Source of the DNA: an uncultured Pelagibacteraceae bacterium
GTDB taxonomy: Bacteria > Pseudomonadota > Alphaproteobacteria > Pelagibacterales > Pelagibacteraceae
Reading direction: 5' to 3'
Assembly (NCBI GenBank): GCA_902525355.1
Contig: CABZGO010000003.1
Span: forward strand, 20,666-84,665
DNA length: 64,000 bases
A program made the position numbers and the translations under genes. This document shows, piece by piece, positions 57,605-63,909 of this stretch; position 1 is the first letter of the stretch; the number at the start of each line of letters is the position of its first letter. Under the pieces are notes generated by a model, which was not told the DNA's origin, ran no database searches, and saw only the letters and a list, made by a program, of their open reading frames with translations.

Positions 57605-58652
57605 GTGACTGAGATAAAAACAAAAAGAGAAAGAGTAAAATTTGCCTCAGATAATGTTACAGGTGCATGTCCAGAAGTCTTAAATGCACTTCTTAAAGCT
57701 AATGAGGATGATAAAACTCCATATGGTAATGATGAGTTATCGAAAAACTTACAAAACAAATTTTCAGAAATATTTGAAAAAGAAGTTATAGTATTTCCAA
57801 CAGCATCAGGCACAGCAGCTAATGCTTTAGCCTTATCAACTATGACTCCTTCTTTTGGAAATATCTATTGCCATAGACTTTCCCATATAAATGTAGATGA
57901 ATGTGGGGCTCCAGAATTTTATACTGGAGGTGCAAAGTTAGTTAATCTGGACGGTAATAATGGAAAAATAATAGCAGAAGAACTAGATAGAAACATCTCT
58001 GGAAAAGGTGTTGTACATCATACTCAACCCTCATCAGTAAGTATTACCCAATTATGTGAGACAGGTGTTGCTTACAATTTAGATGAAATAAAAAAAATAT
58101 CAGAAATTACTCATAAACATGATCTAAATATTCATATGGATGGTGCAAGATTTGCAAATGCGTTAGTTTCATTAAACTGTACTCCAGCAGAAATGACATG
58201 GAAGTCTGGAATTGATGTACTTTCATTTGGAGCAACTAAAAATGGATGCCTAGCAGCAGAAGCCATTATTTTTTTTAAACCAGAGTTAGTTGGAAATTTA
58301 CCTTTTTTAATGAAAAGAGCAGGGCATTTACTATCAAAGATGCGTTTTGTATCAGCTCAATTAGATGCTTATATCTCAAATGAGGTTTGGTTAAAAAAAT
58401 GCGAAGCATGCAAATGCCATGGGAAAAAAATTAAGCCAAGGTTTACTGAAGTACAAAAATATTGAATTAGCTTACCCAACAGATGCAAATGAAGTTTTTG
58501 TAAAAATACCAAAAAATATAATTGATCAATTTAATTCGCATGGTTACAAAATTAACGATAACGAGTGGGAAGATAAAGCCGTTCGATTAGTTGCCGCCTG
58601 GAATACTCATCCAGATGATGTAGAATCGTTTTTAAATATAATTAAATCTTAA
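57605..58652 (+). pseudogene. low-specificity threonine aldolase / beta-eliminating lyase split by a frameshift
   Basis: ORFs 57605..58465 and 58419..58652 rejoin as ..NEVWLKNAKHANAMGKKLSQGLLKYKNIELAYP.. if one A of the A7 run 58393-58399 is removed. Confidence 0.8.
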
Positions 58653-58653
58653 T

Positions 58654-58881
58654 TTAGCTAGGATTTTCTTTAAGGAAATTTATATAATTTACTATTTCAT
58701 CAAATTTTTCATCCTCAATATCTTTATAACTTGCATTAAATTTACTCTTTACGCAAATTGCGACATGTGCATAAGGATTTCTGCCTTTAGGATGATTAGG
58801 ATGATCTGGAAGTTGTCCTTGTAAATAATCGCCAGCTTCTTGAATAATTTTCCAGAGTTTACTTGCGTTTTCTTTATTCAC
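58654..58881 (-). CDS. conserved-looking small hypothetical protein (GTG start)
   Basis: MNKENASKLWKIIQEAGDYLQGQLPDHPNHPKGRNPYAHVAICVKSKFNASYKDIEDEKFDEIVNYINFLKENPS; 5' end duplicated at 62439-62507. Confidence 0.65.
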   Translation of the reverse strand: MNKENASKLWKIIQEAGDYLQGQLPDHPNHPKGRNPYAHVAICVKSKFNASYKDIEDEKFDEIVNYINFLKENPS

Positions 58882-58947
58882 ATTGCCCCATTTCTTGTTT
58901 TATCTCTTCATTATCGAGTTATTATCGAGTTATCCTATAAAATCCTA
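58821..58947. repeat. Left copy of ~127-bp imperfect direct repeat
   Basis: GTAAATAATCGCCAGCTTC...TTATCCTATAAAATCCTA, about 80% identical by eye to 62447-62573. Confidence 0.88.
58910..58931. repeat. Tandem 11-mer ATTATCGAGTT x2
   Basis: ATTATCGAGTTATTATCGAGTT. Confidence 0.95.
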
Positions 58948-58973
58948 TTAACACAGAGCCACATTAATTAAAC

Positions 58974-61900
58974 TTATTTATAACCATAGTTATCAAGAAT
59001 TTTTTTTAATTTTACTTTGTTTAAAGTTTTAAATACATAAAATTTTTTTTTATTTAATGGGATAAAGTCCAAATTAATTTTTTTTAAAATTAATGGATCT
59101 TTCTTTAATATTAATTCTGTTCTAATTCCTTTTGATTTCTTATAAATTATAAAATCTGAATAATAGCTAAGAACATCATGTTTTTCTCTAAACTCTTTTC
59201 TTATAATAGAGTCTATTTTTAACGCTTCTTTAAATTTTTTAATACTCAAAATTTTATAAAAAACATACTCACCATCTGGTATAGAGATTTTTTTATATTT
59301 TTTTAAATAATTTTTGTATCTAGTTATACTCCTTTTGGTAAAATTACATTGATAGGATCCATCATAAAATACTTGGTCAATATGAATATACTTATTGTCT
59401 TTTATTAATTTTCTTGCTTCTGTAATTTTTTGACTTAACTCATCAACAGTTTTTTTTTCATAAAAACCACTAAATGTCACTTTTTTGTTAATTCTATCTA
59501 TGCCAAGTTTATAAGCTATTGGTTTAAAAGGAACTGTATAGATATTTTTGTTTTTGAGATCTTTGTAAATATAAAAATTATTAAAATTTTTCATAAGTAC
59601 TATTTTTTCTTTTTTTAAAAAATCATTAATATTAAATTTAGATTTTTCTATGAAAGGAACAACAAATCCATCATAGTATGATTGCACTTTTATCTTCTTT
59701 GAAACCAAATAATGTTTAAAAATTTCTCTATCAGAAACTAAAAAATTTCTTTGCTTAAAGAACTTTTTTAGAATGTAGTCTAATGTAAAAATATTTTTTA
59801 AATATATTTCATCAACAAAATAATCAAAATTTAATATTTTCTTAATTTTATCTTTGTCTAAATCATACACATCAACATATGTTCCAGCCTCACTAGAATA
59901 GATTTGCCCCTTAGGTTTTACTAAAGACCACAATCGATGAACAGCAGCTATATTAAATTTTTTATATATTTCACCTCTAGTTAAAAATTTAGTAGGAAAA
60001 GCAACTGTTTCTTTATCAAAAGTCCATCTAAAACCTTCTTTGTTTAATTGATTGATGTTTCCAACTGACAAAGTATTCAATTTTTTTCGTCTTCTAATTA
60101 ATCTTAAATTATGAACCCATTCTCCAAGTTCTTTAAATTCACCTTTTGCTAAGAAGGGGACATTACAATTTCCAAATTTATCTTTATATCTTAATAATGT
60201 ACCAAACATATCATCCCAATTATTTCTAAATGTTTCTAATACTTTTATGAAAATATGTTTTTTTAAATTTTTTATATTAATTTCATTTTCTAAAAAAATA
60301 ATTTTTTCACTTAACTTTTTAATTGTTTTAGAAAAGTAACCATGTCCTCTTTTATGATTTCGATTTGCTTCGTTAAGCAATAGATCTAAATTGTCATCTT
60401 GTTCTCTTAATGCATCAAGTACTTCCGATATTGTTTCATAATTTGAGCGCTTAGTTGCTTCTGTAATTTTTTCACTTCTGAATTTTTCTTTAAAAATAGG
60501 TACTAATATGTATCCATATTTTTTATTTTGATTATGTCTATTTCTTACGGCACGCCCTAGAGATTGAACTATATCTATTTTACTTTTCTTTGGACTAACA
60601 TAAGCAATTGCGTCAACTTCTGGCACATCAACACCTTCTATTAAACAACGAGCGTTTGAAATTAATCCTTTCTTGCTTTTTTTAAAATTATTAATAATTT
60701 CTTCCCTTTCTGTGGTTCTCATTTTTGCTTCAATATAGTTTATGTAAAAATTTGGAAGTAAATGAGAAATATCTGTATTAAATTTATTTTTCTTTGCGAA
60801 TGATTGGGTTTGAGGAATTCGTGAATGAAATGTAAAAATTTTTGATAAATTAAATTTTTGGATAGATTTTTTTATAGCAACCTGATGTGCTATTTGGTCA
60901 GTTATGATTTTATTTTTTTTAATGTAAGTAACTGATCTTTTTCTTAATTCCTCTGTTAGTTCTGCACTTTCTGTTCCTGAAATAACTATTCTGTAATCAC
61001 TAATAGCGCCAAGTTTTTGGGCTTCATAAAAATTTAATCTATAACTTACATTTCCGTATATATCAGGATTATTCATATTAAATTTTATTTTTGGATTACC
61101 ATATTCATCTACAATCTTTGAATTATAGCTTTTTTGTGTTGCTGTAAAAAATACACGTTTTTTGATTAATATATTTTTATTTAGCAAGCCCATATTAAAT
61201 TTAGTCTCTTGATGTTTTAAAGAAAAATTAGTTGTTCTATGAGCTTCATCGAATATTCCAATATCAAATGAAATTCCTTTACAAGCTTTAGAAACTGCTT
61301 CTGATGAGTGATATGTAGTAAATATTATTTTAGTTGAATTATCTTTTTTTTGTATAAATTTTCTAATTTCTTTAGGATCTGTATCAATTTTAAAATTTAA
61401 ATCTTTTTTGTTAAGTTTAATTTGATCATACAATTTAGGCTCGGTTTTATCTGAACAGACAGCAAATGATGTTAAATTTTCTAGCGATGTATTAGATAAC
61501 CAGTCTCCTCGAATTTGTTTTAACAATGCAATTGAAGGGACAAAGACAATAATTCTTTTTGGCAATAATCTCTCAATTAACCATAATGCTACATATGTTT
61601 TTCCAGTACCACATGCCATTAAACATGTGGTTCGATCATTATTATTTAGATCATTTATGATACTTTCAATTGCTTTAAGCTGATAATTATCAATTTTTTT
61701 ATCTGACTTTTTTAAAAGATTTTTATTTTTAAAAATATTATTTATATTTTCAATTTCATTTTTAGTTAAATTATGAAAATCTACACCTCTAAAAGCAATA
61801 TTGTTACCTCTTTTAAAATATTCTCCAGCTATAAAATTGCAATTCGTAAAAAGTATTTTTTGATTTGCTCTAGAGCTTTGATCTTTAAATCCTTGGAGCT

Positions 61901-62246
61901 CTTCATAGGATAGCTTTCTTGAACTCCTAAATTTAACTTGATATGGAATTATATTATTTTCTGTATCAATTATTATTCCATCTATTCCTTTATCAGTACG
62001 TGGGATTTCTAATTTTGTAAATAAATCAGATGGAAAATTTCTTTGGGCAGAATAAACATGTTTAACATTAAATAATTTCGTAGTTTTTAAAAATGCCTCA
62101 ATATAAACTTCAAAAATTTCACCTTTTGAATCATCATCAATTGAGAGATTAATTAAAGTATTTTCAAATTGTTCAAAGGTCGCAAACTTAAAATATTTTT
62201 CTTTTATTTTGTGAAGTTTTGGATGTTCAAGTCTATTTAAATTCAT
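58974..62246 (-). CDS. Nuclease-like N-term + SF2 DEAD/DEAH helicase + helicase-associated (HA) domain protein
   Basis: KGIDGIIIDTENNIIPYQVKFR (Mrr-like D..QxK), MACGTGKTYVALW, IFDEAHR, FTATQ, SLGRAVRN; HA-like YKDKFGNCNVPFLAKGEFKELGEWVHNLRLIRRRKKLNTLSVGNINQLNKEGFRW. Confidence 0.85.
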   Translation of the reverse strand: MNLNRLEHPKLHKIKEKYFKFATFEQFENTLINLSIDDDSKGEIFEVYIEAFLKTTKLFNVKHVYSAQRNFPSDLFTKLEIPRTDKGIDGIIIDTENNIIPYQVKFRSSRKLSYEELQGFKDQSSRANQKILFTNCNFIAGEYFKRGNNIAFRGVDFHNLTKNEIENINNIFKNKNLLKKSDKKIDNYQLKAIESIINDLNNNDRTTCLMACGTGKTYVALWLIERLLPKRIIVFVPSIALLKQIRGDWLSNTSLENLTSFAVCSDKTEPKLYDQIKLNKKDLNFKIDTDPKEIRKFIQKKDNSTKIIFTTYHSSEAVSKACKGISFDIGIFDEAHRTTNFSLKHQETKFNMGLLNKNILIKKRVFFTATQKSYNSKIVDEYGNPKIKFNMNNPDIYGNVSYRLNFYEAQKLGAISDYRIVISGTESAELTEELRKRSVTYIKKNKIITDQIAHQVAIKKSIQKFNLSKIFTFHSRIPQTQSFAKKNKFNTDISHLLPNFYINYIEAKMRTTEREEIINNFKKSKKGLISNARCLIEGVDVPEVDAIAYVSPKKSKIDIVQSLGRAVRNRHNQNKKYGYILVPIFKEKFRSEKITEATKRSNYETISEVLDALREQDDNLDLLLNEANRNHKRGHGYFSKTIKKLSEKIIFLENEINIKNLKKHIFIKVLETFRNNWDDMFGTLLRYKDKFGNCNVPFLAKGEFKELGEWVHNLRLIRRRKKLNTLSVGNINQLNKEGFRWTFDKETVAFPTKFLTRGEIYKKFNIAAVHRLWSLVKPKGQIYSSEAGTYVDVYDLDKDKIKKILNFDYFVDEIYLKNIFTLDYILKKFFKQRNFLVSDREIFKHYLVSKKIKVQSYYDGFVVPFIEKSKFNINDFLKKEKIVLMKNFNNFYIYKDLKNKNIYTVPFKPIAYKLGIDRINKKVTFSGFYEKKTVDELSQKITEARKLIKDNKYIHIDQVFYDGSYQCNFTKRSITRYKNYLKKYKKISIPDGEYVFYKILSIKKFKEALKIDSIIRKEFREKHDVLSYYSDFIIYKKSKGIRTELILKKDPLILKKINLDFIPLNKKKFYVFKTLNKVKLKKILDNYGYK

Positions 62247-62308
62247 TAATTAAAAATTATATAATTTTATATTCTTAGTTACCAGTCTGTCACTTGACTT
62301 ATCTATTT

Positions 62309-62331
62309 ATTATCGAGTTATAGATCGAGTT
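62309..62331. promoter_or_regulatory. ATTATCGAGTT + ATAGATCGAGTT repeat upstream of the helicase gene
   Basis: Exact 11-mer shared with 58910-58931, followed by a degenerate copy. Confidence 0.75.
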
Positions 62332-62404
62332 TTTTAATTAAATTAATGAGTCTTTCAGCGATTTATTTCAAACTAACTTTTTAATATTCGCATAAGTACT
62401 GTAG

Positions 62405-62434
62405 TTTAATGTAGCTTAATGTGGATTAATGTGA
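62405..62434. repeat. Three tandem 10-bp repeats (NTTAATGTRR)
   Basis: TTTAATGTAG / CTTAATGTGG / ATTAATGTGA. Confidence 0.75.
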
Positions 62435-62438
62435 ACCT

Positions 62439-62507
62439 CTAATCCCGTAAATAATCGCCAGCTTCCTGTATCATTTTCCACAGTTTACTTGCATTTTCTT
62501 TATCCAC
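62439..62507 (-). pseudogene. Truncated 5' copy of the 58654..58881 gene
   Basis: GTG start, VDKENASKLWKMIQEAGDYLRD* vs MNKENASKLWKIIQEAGDYLQG. Confidence 0.8.
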
Positions 62508-62573
62508 ATTAACCTATTTTATGTTTCATCTCTTTTGATACAAGTTTGATACAAGTTATCCTATAAAATCCTA
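62447..62573. repeat. Right copy of ~127-bp imperfect direct repeat
   Basis: GTAAATAATCGCCAGCTTC...TTATCCTATAAAATCCTA. Confidence 0.88.
62534..62555. repeat. Tandem 11-mer TTTGATACAAG x2
   Basis: TTTGATACAAGTTTGATACAAG, positional equivalent of 58910-58931. Confidence 0.95.
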
Positions 62574-62584
62574 CATTATTTATA

Positions 62585-63370
62585 TTAATCTGGGCAATTC
62601 TGATACTCTCCAGGATATCTTGCACATAACTCTAAATGTGCTTTCTCATTTTCAAGTTCCCTTTCTCGAAATCTTGAAGTTTTCAAATTCTGTTGACTTC
62701 TAAAGAATTGTCTATTTAAATTATTTCTTTGTTGTTTAAGTGAATTTACCTCATCTTGCAGTCTTTGAATGTTATAGATTTTACTTGCTTGATAAGAAGC
62801 TGTCTCAACTTTGAATTTCCAATCGTTTATTTTATCTTGATTTACATCCATTATTTTTTTGGCTTTTCTATTAAATTCTCCCCAAGATATTTCTGAATTA
62901 TCTATACTTGCAAATAAAAACAGTATTTCAGCATATGTTCTATTCATTAGTAATGCTATTTCCATAACTAGTGGAGAAGAATAATTTACGTTGATTACAT
63001 CAATAAAACAATATTCAGCCTTAGGTATATACCAAGACAGTGCATCTCTCTCTAAGCTCGTTATATAATCTTTATCACTGAAGTGTTTATAAGTCATTTT
63101 CTCTATATCAGGAGATTTACGATCTATAACTAAATAGATAGGGTTTTTTTCTATTTCAGTTACACATTTTTCAGCATCAACTAATTTAGTCTCATAATTT
63201 CTCATTTCTTTTTGACTATAACCAACAGATTTAAGTGCTGCTCTTTTTTGTTGTTTTTCTTTCATCATTATAGATGACTCATCTAACACTGCTGTGACTA
63301 ATGTGGGATCACATGCAGTTGAAAATAAAAGTATCAAACTCAGAATGATTCTTACCGAATTTTTTTTCAT
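62585..63370 (-). CDS. hypothetical lipoprotein
   Basis: Lipobox-like LLFSTAC, coiled-coil C-terminus (LQDEVNSLKQQRNNLNRQF). Confidence 0.6.
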   Translation of the reverse strand: MKKNSVRIILSLILLFSTACDPTLVTAVLDESSIMMKEKQQKRAALKSVGYSQKEMRNYETKLVDAEKCVTEIEKNPIYLVIDRKSPDIEKMTYKHFSDKDYITSLERDALSWYIPKAEYCFIDVINVNYSSPLVMEIALLMNRTYAEILFLFASIDNSEISWGEFNRKAKKIMDVNQDKINDWKFKVETASYQASKIYNIQRLQDEVNSLKQQRNNLNRQFFRSQQNLKTSRFRERELENEKAHLELCARYPGEYQNCPD

Positions 63371-63909
63371 TTTATATTTCTTAAAGGCATAATTGTTAAT
63401 TTGTTTTTAATATTGTATAGCCCATAAACTGTCATACCAAATAATTTAACCCTAGTTTTTGAATAGTGCTTTACAAGTACTATGCTAAGACAATCATTAT
63501 TAATATTTGGTGCAAAATCATTGCAAAAATATAAAGGTAATTCAGAGATTACAGTATAATCAAATTCATCTCCTGTATTACATTCATCCAGGTATCTTGT
63601 TAAAGACATCTCCTCACCCCATGAAGAATTATATTTGTCTCCAATAGGTATCTCTTTTCCTAAATAATCACCAATTTTATTAACAAATAATTCAAATTTA
63701 GGATTGCCCCAATGTTTATCTAATTTATTAATATAATTATCGTAGTATGATTCATACCAATCTCCAGATGCTAAGGGGTATAGGTTATTCAAACATTTTT
63801 CTGAGATTTTAATATTGTTATATGTCCACGGTTTGTATTTTGTGTCATCTGCATTAACTGTTACAAACCAAAACAAACCCAGAACCACGATCCCTAAAAG
63901 TTTTTTCAT
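63367..63909 (-). CDS. hypothetical exported protein
   Basis: Signal peptide MKKLLGIVVLGLFWFVTVNA; no recognised domain. Confidence 0.55.
   Translation of the reverse strand: MKKLLGIVVLGLFWFVTVNADDTKYKPWTYNNIKISEKCLNNLYPLASGDWYESYYDNYINKLDKHWGNPKFELFVNKIGDYLGKEIPIGDKYNSSWGEEMSLTRYLDECNTGDEFDYTVISELPLYFCNDFAPNINNDCLSIVLVKHYSKTRVKLFGMTVYGLYNIKNKLTIMPLRNIK

Follow-up and report, generated by a model that had tools for sequence, protein, structure and literature searches.

Introduction

PICMI satellites carry int, alpA and a primase gene (PMC10803314), and at the ssrA locus of Dehalococcoides tandem islands without an integrase have been suggested to be cis-mobilizable elements (PMC3146451). Arm-binding domains, in turn, mark the integrases of mobile elements (PMC8138268). 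In this study, a window of 64,000 nucleotides, the whole stretch of DNA analysed, was found to carry two homologous repeat copies with tandem 11-mers that belong to two neighbouring integrated elements, one of them an integrase-less cassette. Our search of the open literature found no account of such cassettes in SAR11, nor of arm types that match between ends. As argued below, the tandem units are very probably arm-type sites that co-evolve with a tyrosine integrase, and the cassettes that they bound would be integrase-less passengers.

Results

Two repeat copies as the ends of neighbouring elements

The left copy (58821-58947) and the right copy (62447-62573) align without gaps over 127 bp at an offset of 3626. 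There are 25 mismatches, 13 of them within the tandem 11-mer stretch, and these counts, taken from an earlier note on this DNA, were correct to the base. The left copy contains ATTATCGAGTT twice (58910-58931; on the minus strand ACTCGATAATA + ACTCGATAATG at 58909-58930) and the right copy TTTGATACAAG twice (62534-62555; on the minus strand ACTTGTATCAA twice at 62535-62556), and both tandem pairs are directly followed by TTATCCTATAAAATCCTA. On the minus strand the order in both copies is TAGGATTTTATAGGATA, two units, a short spacer and the start of a 75-aa gene. A third site at 62308-62330, absent from the earlier note, consists of ATTATCGAGTT and an adjoining near-copy. Because this site and the left copy are of the same unit type and flank the helicase stretch, they were assigned to the two ends of one 3.6-kb element. 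The right copy, whose ACTTGTATCAA type differs from that of the helicase element, is by its layout the right end of a neighbouring element. The left end of that element would lie beyond the contig, which stops where the window stops. The earlier note had described a swap of units between homologous copies; the sequence difference is real, but each copy is the end of a separate element, and the swap itself does not stand.

The following features all lie on the minus strand. The complete 75-aa target gene (MNKENASKLW..., from its ORF and translation) occupies 58654-58881, and its 5' end appears to have been regenerated by the integrated element. Its 5' codons form the attR core (58822-58881), a repeat (D1) shared with the truncated attL copy. 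The box TAGGATTTTATAGGATA of the helicase element (58931-58947) adjoins the putative right-end arm sites in the left copy, and the cargo (58974-62246) is a 1090-aa ResIII/DEAD helicase with an HA domain according to Pfam and PADLOC, resembling type IIG/type I restriction proteins. The putative left-end arm sites, ACTCGATCTATA + ACTCGATAATA (62308-62330), agree in type with those at the right end. They sit in the apparent decayed start of a lost integrase gene (62290-62352; GACTCATTAATTTAATTAAAAA plus the units), recognised by frame translation of cassette left ends and Int starts, which reads KKLDL*LDNK*ISQ compared with KLDIKLELGEIKQ in the Int of L234. The attL core (62447-62507) is a truncated repeat of the target gene that covers its first ~20 codons, and arrays L032 and L073 show the same truncation. 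In the neighbouring element, the box TAGGATTTTATAGGATA (62557-62573) adjoins the putative right-end arm sites, and two ORFs of 261 and 180 aa with signal-peptide-like starts (62585-63909) are the presumed cargo. Another cassette of this kind in the genome of the window sits at tRNA-Leu, on contig C12.

The 75-aa gene had no match in Pfam or PHROG. Its relatives comprised more than 500 matched stretches in genome contigs, of which 80 loci were kept, all from Pelagibacteraceae/Pelagibacterales, and going by these relatives the host of the window is a member of the Pelagibacteraceae (SAR11). Beside the gene, an aldolase-like frame (57605-58652) is split into overlapping ORFs (57605-58465 and 58419-58652), which suggests a frameshift or a sequencing error.

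Pairing and end matching of unit types

The survey combined the 80 loci around the 75-aa gene with sixty array regions from members of the genus, and the loci showed a common plan with many unit types. The targets were the 75-aa gene (target A) and tRNA-Leu(UAA) (target B), and the 84 distinct right-end sites comprised 60 of target A (27 types) and 24 of target B (14 types). The two units of a right end were identical at the six variable letters in 72% (A) and 79% (B) of cases, compared with 4% and 12% of unit pairs taken across loci, and the observed pairing was reached in none of 5000 shuffles. The concerted change of both units, which the earlier note had read from the window, is thus general, with right unit 1 unlike unit 2 in about a quarter of the sites.

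Matching also extends from one end of an element to the other. In 35 of 49 cassettes left unit 2 equalled right unit 2 at all six letters (22 of 33 A-type and 13 of 16 B-type), and the across-element identity of unit 2 was 5% (A) and 18% (B); none of 10000 permutations matched the observed totals (p<1e-4). Between the ends of a cassette a mean of 5.2 (A) and 5.8 (B) letters matched, compared with 3.0 and 3.5 across elements. The other 14 of the 49 cassettes were imperfectly matched, L012, L020 and L047 being among those fully mismatched, and the ends can thus diverge or be swapped. A neutral process, such as replication slippage or gene conversion, might homogenise the units without any protein reading them, and slippage can indeed turn adjacent tandem copies into identical pairs. 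This neutral origin is hardly credible, since units also match between opposite ends, over distances of 0.5-6.6 kb, the unequal units 1 and 2 of L027 and L176 keep the same inequality at both ends, and the integrase domain changes along with the unit, as described below.

Two pairs of closely related cassettes bear on what sets the unit type. L039 and L158, 97% identical over 2.6 kb, differ by one A-to-C change that is present in both right units and in left unit 2, and L053 and L063, 96% identical over 1.55 kb, show a similar coordinated unit change. These pairs indicate that unit type is not set by the cargo and that the copies of one element move together. A link between cargo and unit type was looked for among the cassettes and none was found, the same cargo occurring with two unit types. 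Of the two correlates that had been proposed for unit type, neighbouring gene content and integrase type, the first fails for the cargo genes of the cassettes and the second is supported for the integrase N-domain.

Attachment-site geometry

The stretch from a right end to the left end that follows it contains the 5' target piece, either ~20 codons of the gene or a tRNA-Leu cut in the anticodon loop. Right and left units are separated by 226-227 bp (A) or 265-268 bp (B), a constancy as would be expected if attP had a fixed layout in a circle. The att core, within the tRNA or gene end, is duplicated at both element ends. At the left ends of A-type cassettes the units are spaced by 12 bp, that is by whole codons, in 31 of 33 cases, and most of these cassettes are still in frame with the reading KKLxxKLxxxEINQ, which by its translation is the apparent fossil of a lost integrase gene. 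Beside the core, tandem repeats of ~10 bp are kept across unit types (CACATTAA in A, TAGTCTC in B). In the window they are CACATTAATC CACATTAAGC TACATTAAAC on the minus strand next to the attL core (62398-62436) and in L236 they follow position 41; these repeats are candidate excisionase sites.

The box TAGGATTTTATAGGATA occurs at cassette right ends, and the full-size elements checked have no box at their own right ends, for which reason the first idea of the box as an integrase arm site was dropped. The tRNA-Leu cassettes have an inverted counterpart of the box on the left side. A search of viral contigs with the box TAGGATTTTATAGGAYA returned 24 matches, none with the unit architecture, and three attP patterns searched in viral contigs gave nothing.

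Cassette cargo

The 49 cassettes hold 0.5-6.6 kb of cargo (median 1.8 kb), with 67 Pfam families among 92 proteins, most seen once. Examples are restriction-like helicases, methylases, peptidases, polysaccharide lyases and one TRAP transporter, and about half of the cargo proteins have a signal-peptide-like start by a rough pattern count. Many cargo genes (e.g. L073 3352-4863) open with near-identical MKKLLGIVVLGLL signal peptides, and in some cassettes a truncated version of this start is joined to the box. L016 (900-4100) and L168, from different genomes, have cargo (99% identity over 1.2 kb) and unit type in common, one at target A and the other at tRNA-Leu.

No integrase of the full-size-element family described below was found in any of the 49 cargo segments, that of the helicase element in the window included. 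Being att-flanked and lacking an integrase, the cassettes have the make-up of cis-mobilizable elements. The cassette box, with one mismatch allowed, was present in 128 of 399 genus genomes sampled, and integrase matches, some weak or broken, in 9 of the 399. Two other groups of recombinases, the integrases at tRNA-Met and XerC/XerD-like proteins, were also looked at, and none was located at the arrays.

Full-size relatives

Full-size elements were reached through contigs bearing the tRNA-Leu or gene core. They are rare, 7.7-10 kb long, occupy the same targets as the cassettes and have matched units, and their gene set comprises an integrase, an HTH protein, a primase and a RusA-like resolvase; no capsid or structural genes were recognised in them. 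L236, a 7.8-kb contig, begins and ends with the core (positions 4 and 7704) and is therefore probably a 7.7-kb circle. Its genes include those for a 545-aa tyrosine integrase and small HTH-like proteins, along with an AEP/DUF5906 primase-helicase and a RusA-like resolvase. Host genomes G168, G120 and G202 contain complete elements between attL and attR with the end-matched units ACTAGAAAC, ACCAGCACA and TTCCACAC, respectively, and further full-size elements with matched units are L236, L251, L257, L255 and L234. Their left units lie inside the first codons of int (e.g. MNEKLDIKLELGEIKQ), 12 bp apart where read. The type ACCAGCACA is common to the full-size element of G120 and the cassette upstream of the element in G202, and shared unit types of this kind suggest that a cassette may be mobilised by the integrase of another element. 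One integrase was located at tRNA-Ser, and in another genus L277 (G403) has a partial related integrase near tRNA-Cys with the start units GTTGACCAGG/GTTGACCAG.

The position of the left units bears on whether the units might be promoter operators of the cargo and the target gene, either OmpR/PhoB-like tandem sites or sites of a self-specific repressor. Tandem 11-bp direct repeats upstream of genes would fit such a function, and GAGATAAA after each pair could be a -10 region. Yet the left set of full-size elements falls within the reading frame of int, unit type does not depend on the cargo, both element ends match, and the same plan also precedes a tRNA gene. OmpR/PhoB-type sites would moreover be expected upstream of a regulated promoter with a common consensus, whereas about 40 unit types occur here. 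An operator role is accordingly very unlikely.

Some of the full-size copies came from a virus contig collection, which is no more than suggestive of phage packaging. Pelagiphages HTVC105P, HTVC109P and MedDCM-OCT-S35-C6 were considered as a source; they have the tRNA-Leu core in common with the elements, but their flanking repeats are different. A tblastn search of the phage collection with the integrase returned no match, and on both grounds the pelagiphages are not the source. The pelagiphages L228, L229 and L230, with the tRNA-Leu core, carry inverted flanking repeats (e.g. GAAGTAGCGGA / TCCGCTACTTC) that also seem to change together between phages.

The integrase N-domain and the unit type

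Only the full-size relatives encode a tyrosine recombinase with predicted catalytic and arm-binding domains. Their integrase matches Phage_integrase in Pfam and a PHROG integrase (E 4e-20), and its model (mean pLDDT 79.6) resembles lambda Int and XerH. For the N-domain, Foldseek gave a probability of 1.00 for similarity to the arm-type binding domains 3ju0 and 3jtz, the E-values of the arm-domain entries alone being weak, about 0.1. Three integrases were compared closely at residues 80-105, a sheet region picked after viewing the alignment: L257 and L251, which have different units, differ at 12 of 26 residues there compared with 27 of 490 elsewhere (p 3e-8), and L236 and L257, which have one unit type, at 3 of 26 compared with 25 of 490. 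The direct contrast between these two pairs gave only p 0.075. Among 10 related integrases, with units assigned by hand and some from left arms alone, unit distance correlated with N-domain distance when the rest of the protein was allowed for (partial Mantel r 0.55, reached in 0 of 5000 permutations). No integrase with the exact unit type of the window was found in the data.

A different reader of the units would be an excisionase, or recombination directionality factor (RDF), a small HTH protein whose gene lies near int. Full-size elements do have a gene for a small HTH-like protein downstream of int, and the position of the right units, on the arm near the core, is roughly that of the lambda Xis sites. 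Direct repeats spaced by one helical turn are typical of RDF sites (PMC7498355). Between L251 and L257, however, the units differ and the integrase N-domain is strongly different, whereas this putative excisionase has 2 substitutions only and an identical putative recognition helix. The ~10-bp repeats beside the core, constant across unit types, would also suit an RDF better, and an excisionase as the reader is therefore unlikely. Reading of the units by an integrase arm-binding domain, the co-evolution idea of the earlier note, is supported by the general pairing, the end-matched types and the change of the N-domain with the unit.

Discussion

The proposed mechanism assigns the tandem 11/12-mers to arm-type binding by a tyrosine integrase. 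At the right end, two units stand just before the regenerated 5' part of the 75-aa gene or of tRNA-Leu UAA; at the left end, two or three units match the type of the right end and, in full-size elements, fall within the first codons of int itself. The units would be read by the AP2-like N-terminal domain of the integrase, which may bind them directly, so that all copies in an element would have to change along with the domain. Joint change of units and domain would then yield an element-specific key. The helicase element, like all 49 cassettes, appears to have lost the integrase gene and kept a decayed start, and would thus need an integrase with the matching key in trans, for excision or integration of cassettes alike.

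More tentatively, and with our confidence not quite evenly balanced in its favour, SAR11 could maintain a shared pool of integrase-less cassettes under dozens of integrase specificities, each an arm-site key set by one small domain and all its sites. Rare satellite integrases would move only the cassettes of their own key, and cargo could be re-keyed at both ends. If true, streamlined SAR11, among the most abundant cells of the sea, would have a route to swap defence and surface genes without recombinases of their own. The pattern would be easily missed, its sole constant signal being a short att geometry, and the paired unit and integrase data offer a natural set for how AP2-like arm-binding domains choose DNA.

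Like PICMI and P4-like satellites (PMC10803314, PMC8628076), the full-size relatives are small and integrated, encode an integrase, a small HTH protein and a DUF5906-type primase, and have no recognised structural genes. Unlike them, they occur in a different host, at tRNA-Leu UAA, the 75-aa gene and in one case tRNA-Ser, amid many integrase-less derivatives. Integration in fis, typical of PICMI, was not seen; int and DUF5906 are present, and Pfam gave no AlpA match for the HTH protein. With the CIMEs and tandem accretion of Dehalococcoides ssrA (PMC3146451) the SAR11 cassettes share att-bounded tandem islands, many without an integration module, but the Dehalococcoides islands use a serine recombinase and a common repeat, whereas the SAR11 system has a tyrosine integrase and arm units that are specific to each element and match between its ends. 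The arm-type domains of the HPI and HAI7 integrases (PDB 3jtz, 3ju0, 3rmp) have the same fold as that predicted for the SAR11 N-domain; unlike HPI and HAI7, the SAR11 system has about 40 unit types in one host genus and left sites inside int. Integron gene cassettes resemble the SAR11 arrays in holding cargo without its own recombinase at a fixed locus. In contrast to integrons, no IntI or attC was seen in the SAR11 arrays, and each element restores the 5' end of its target.
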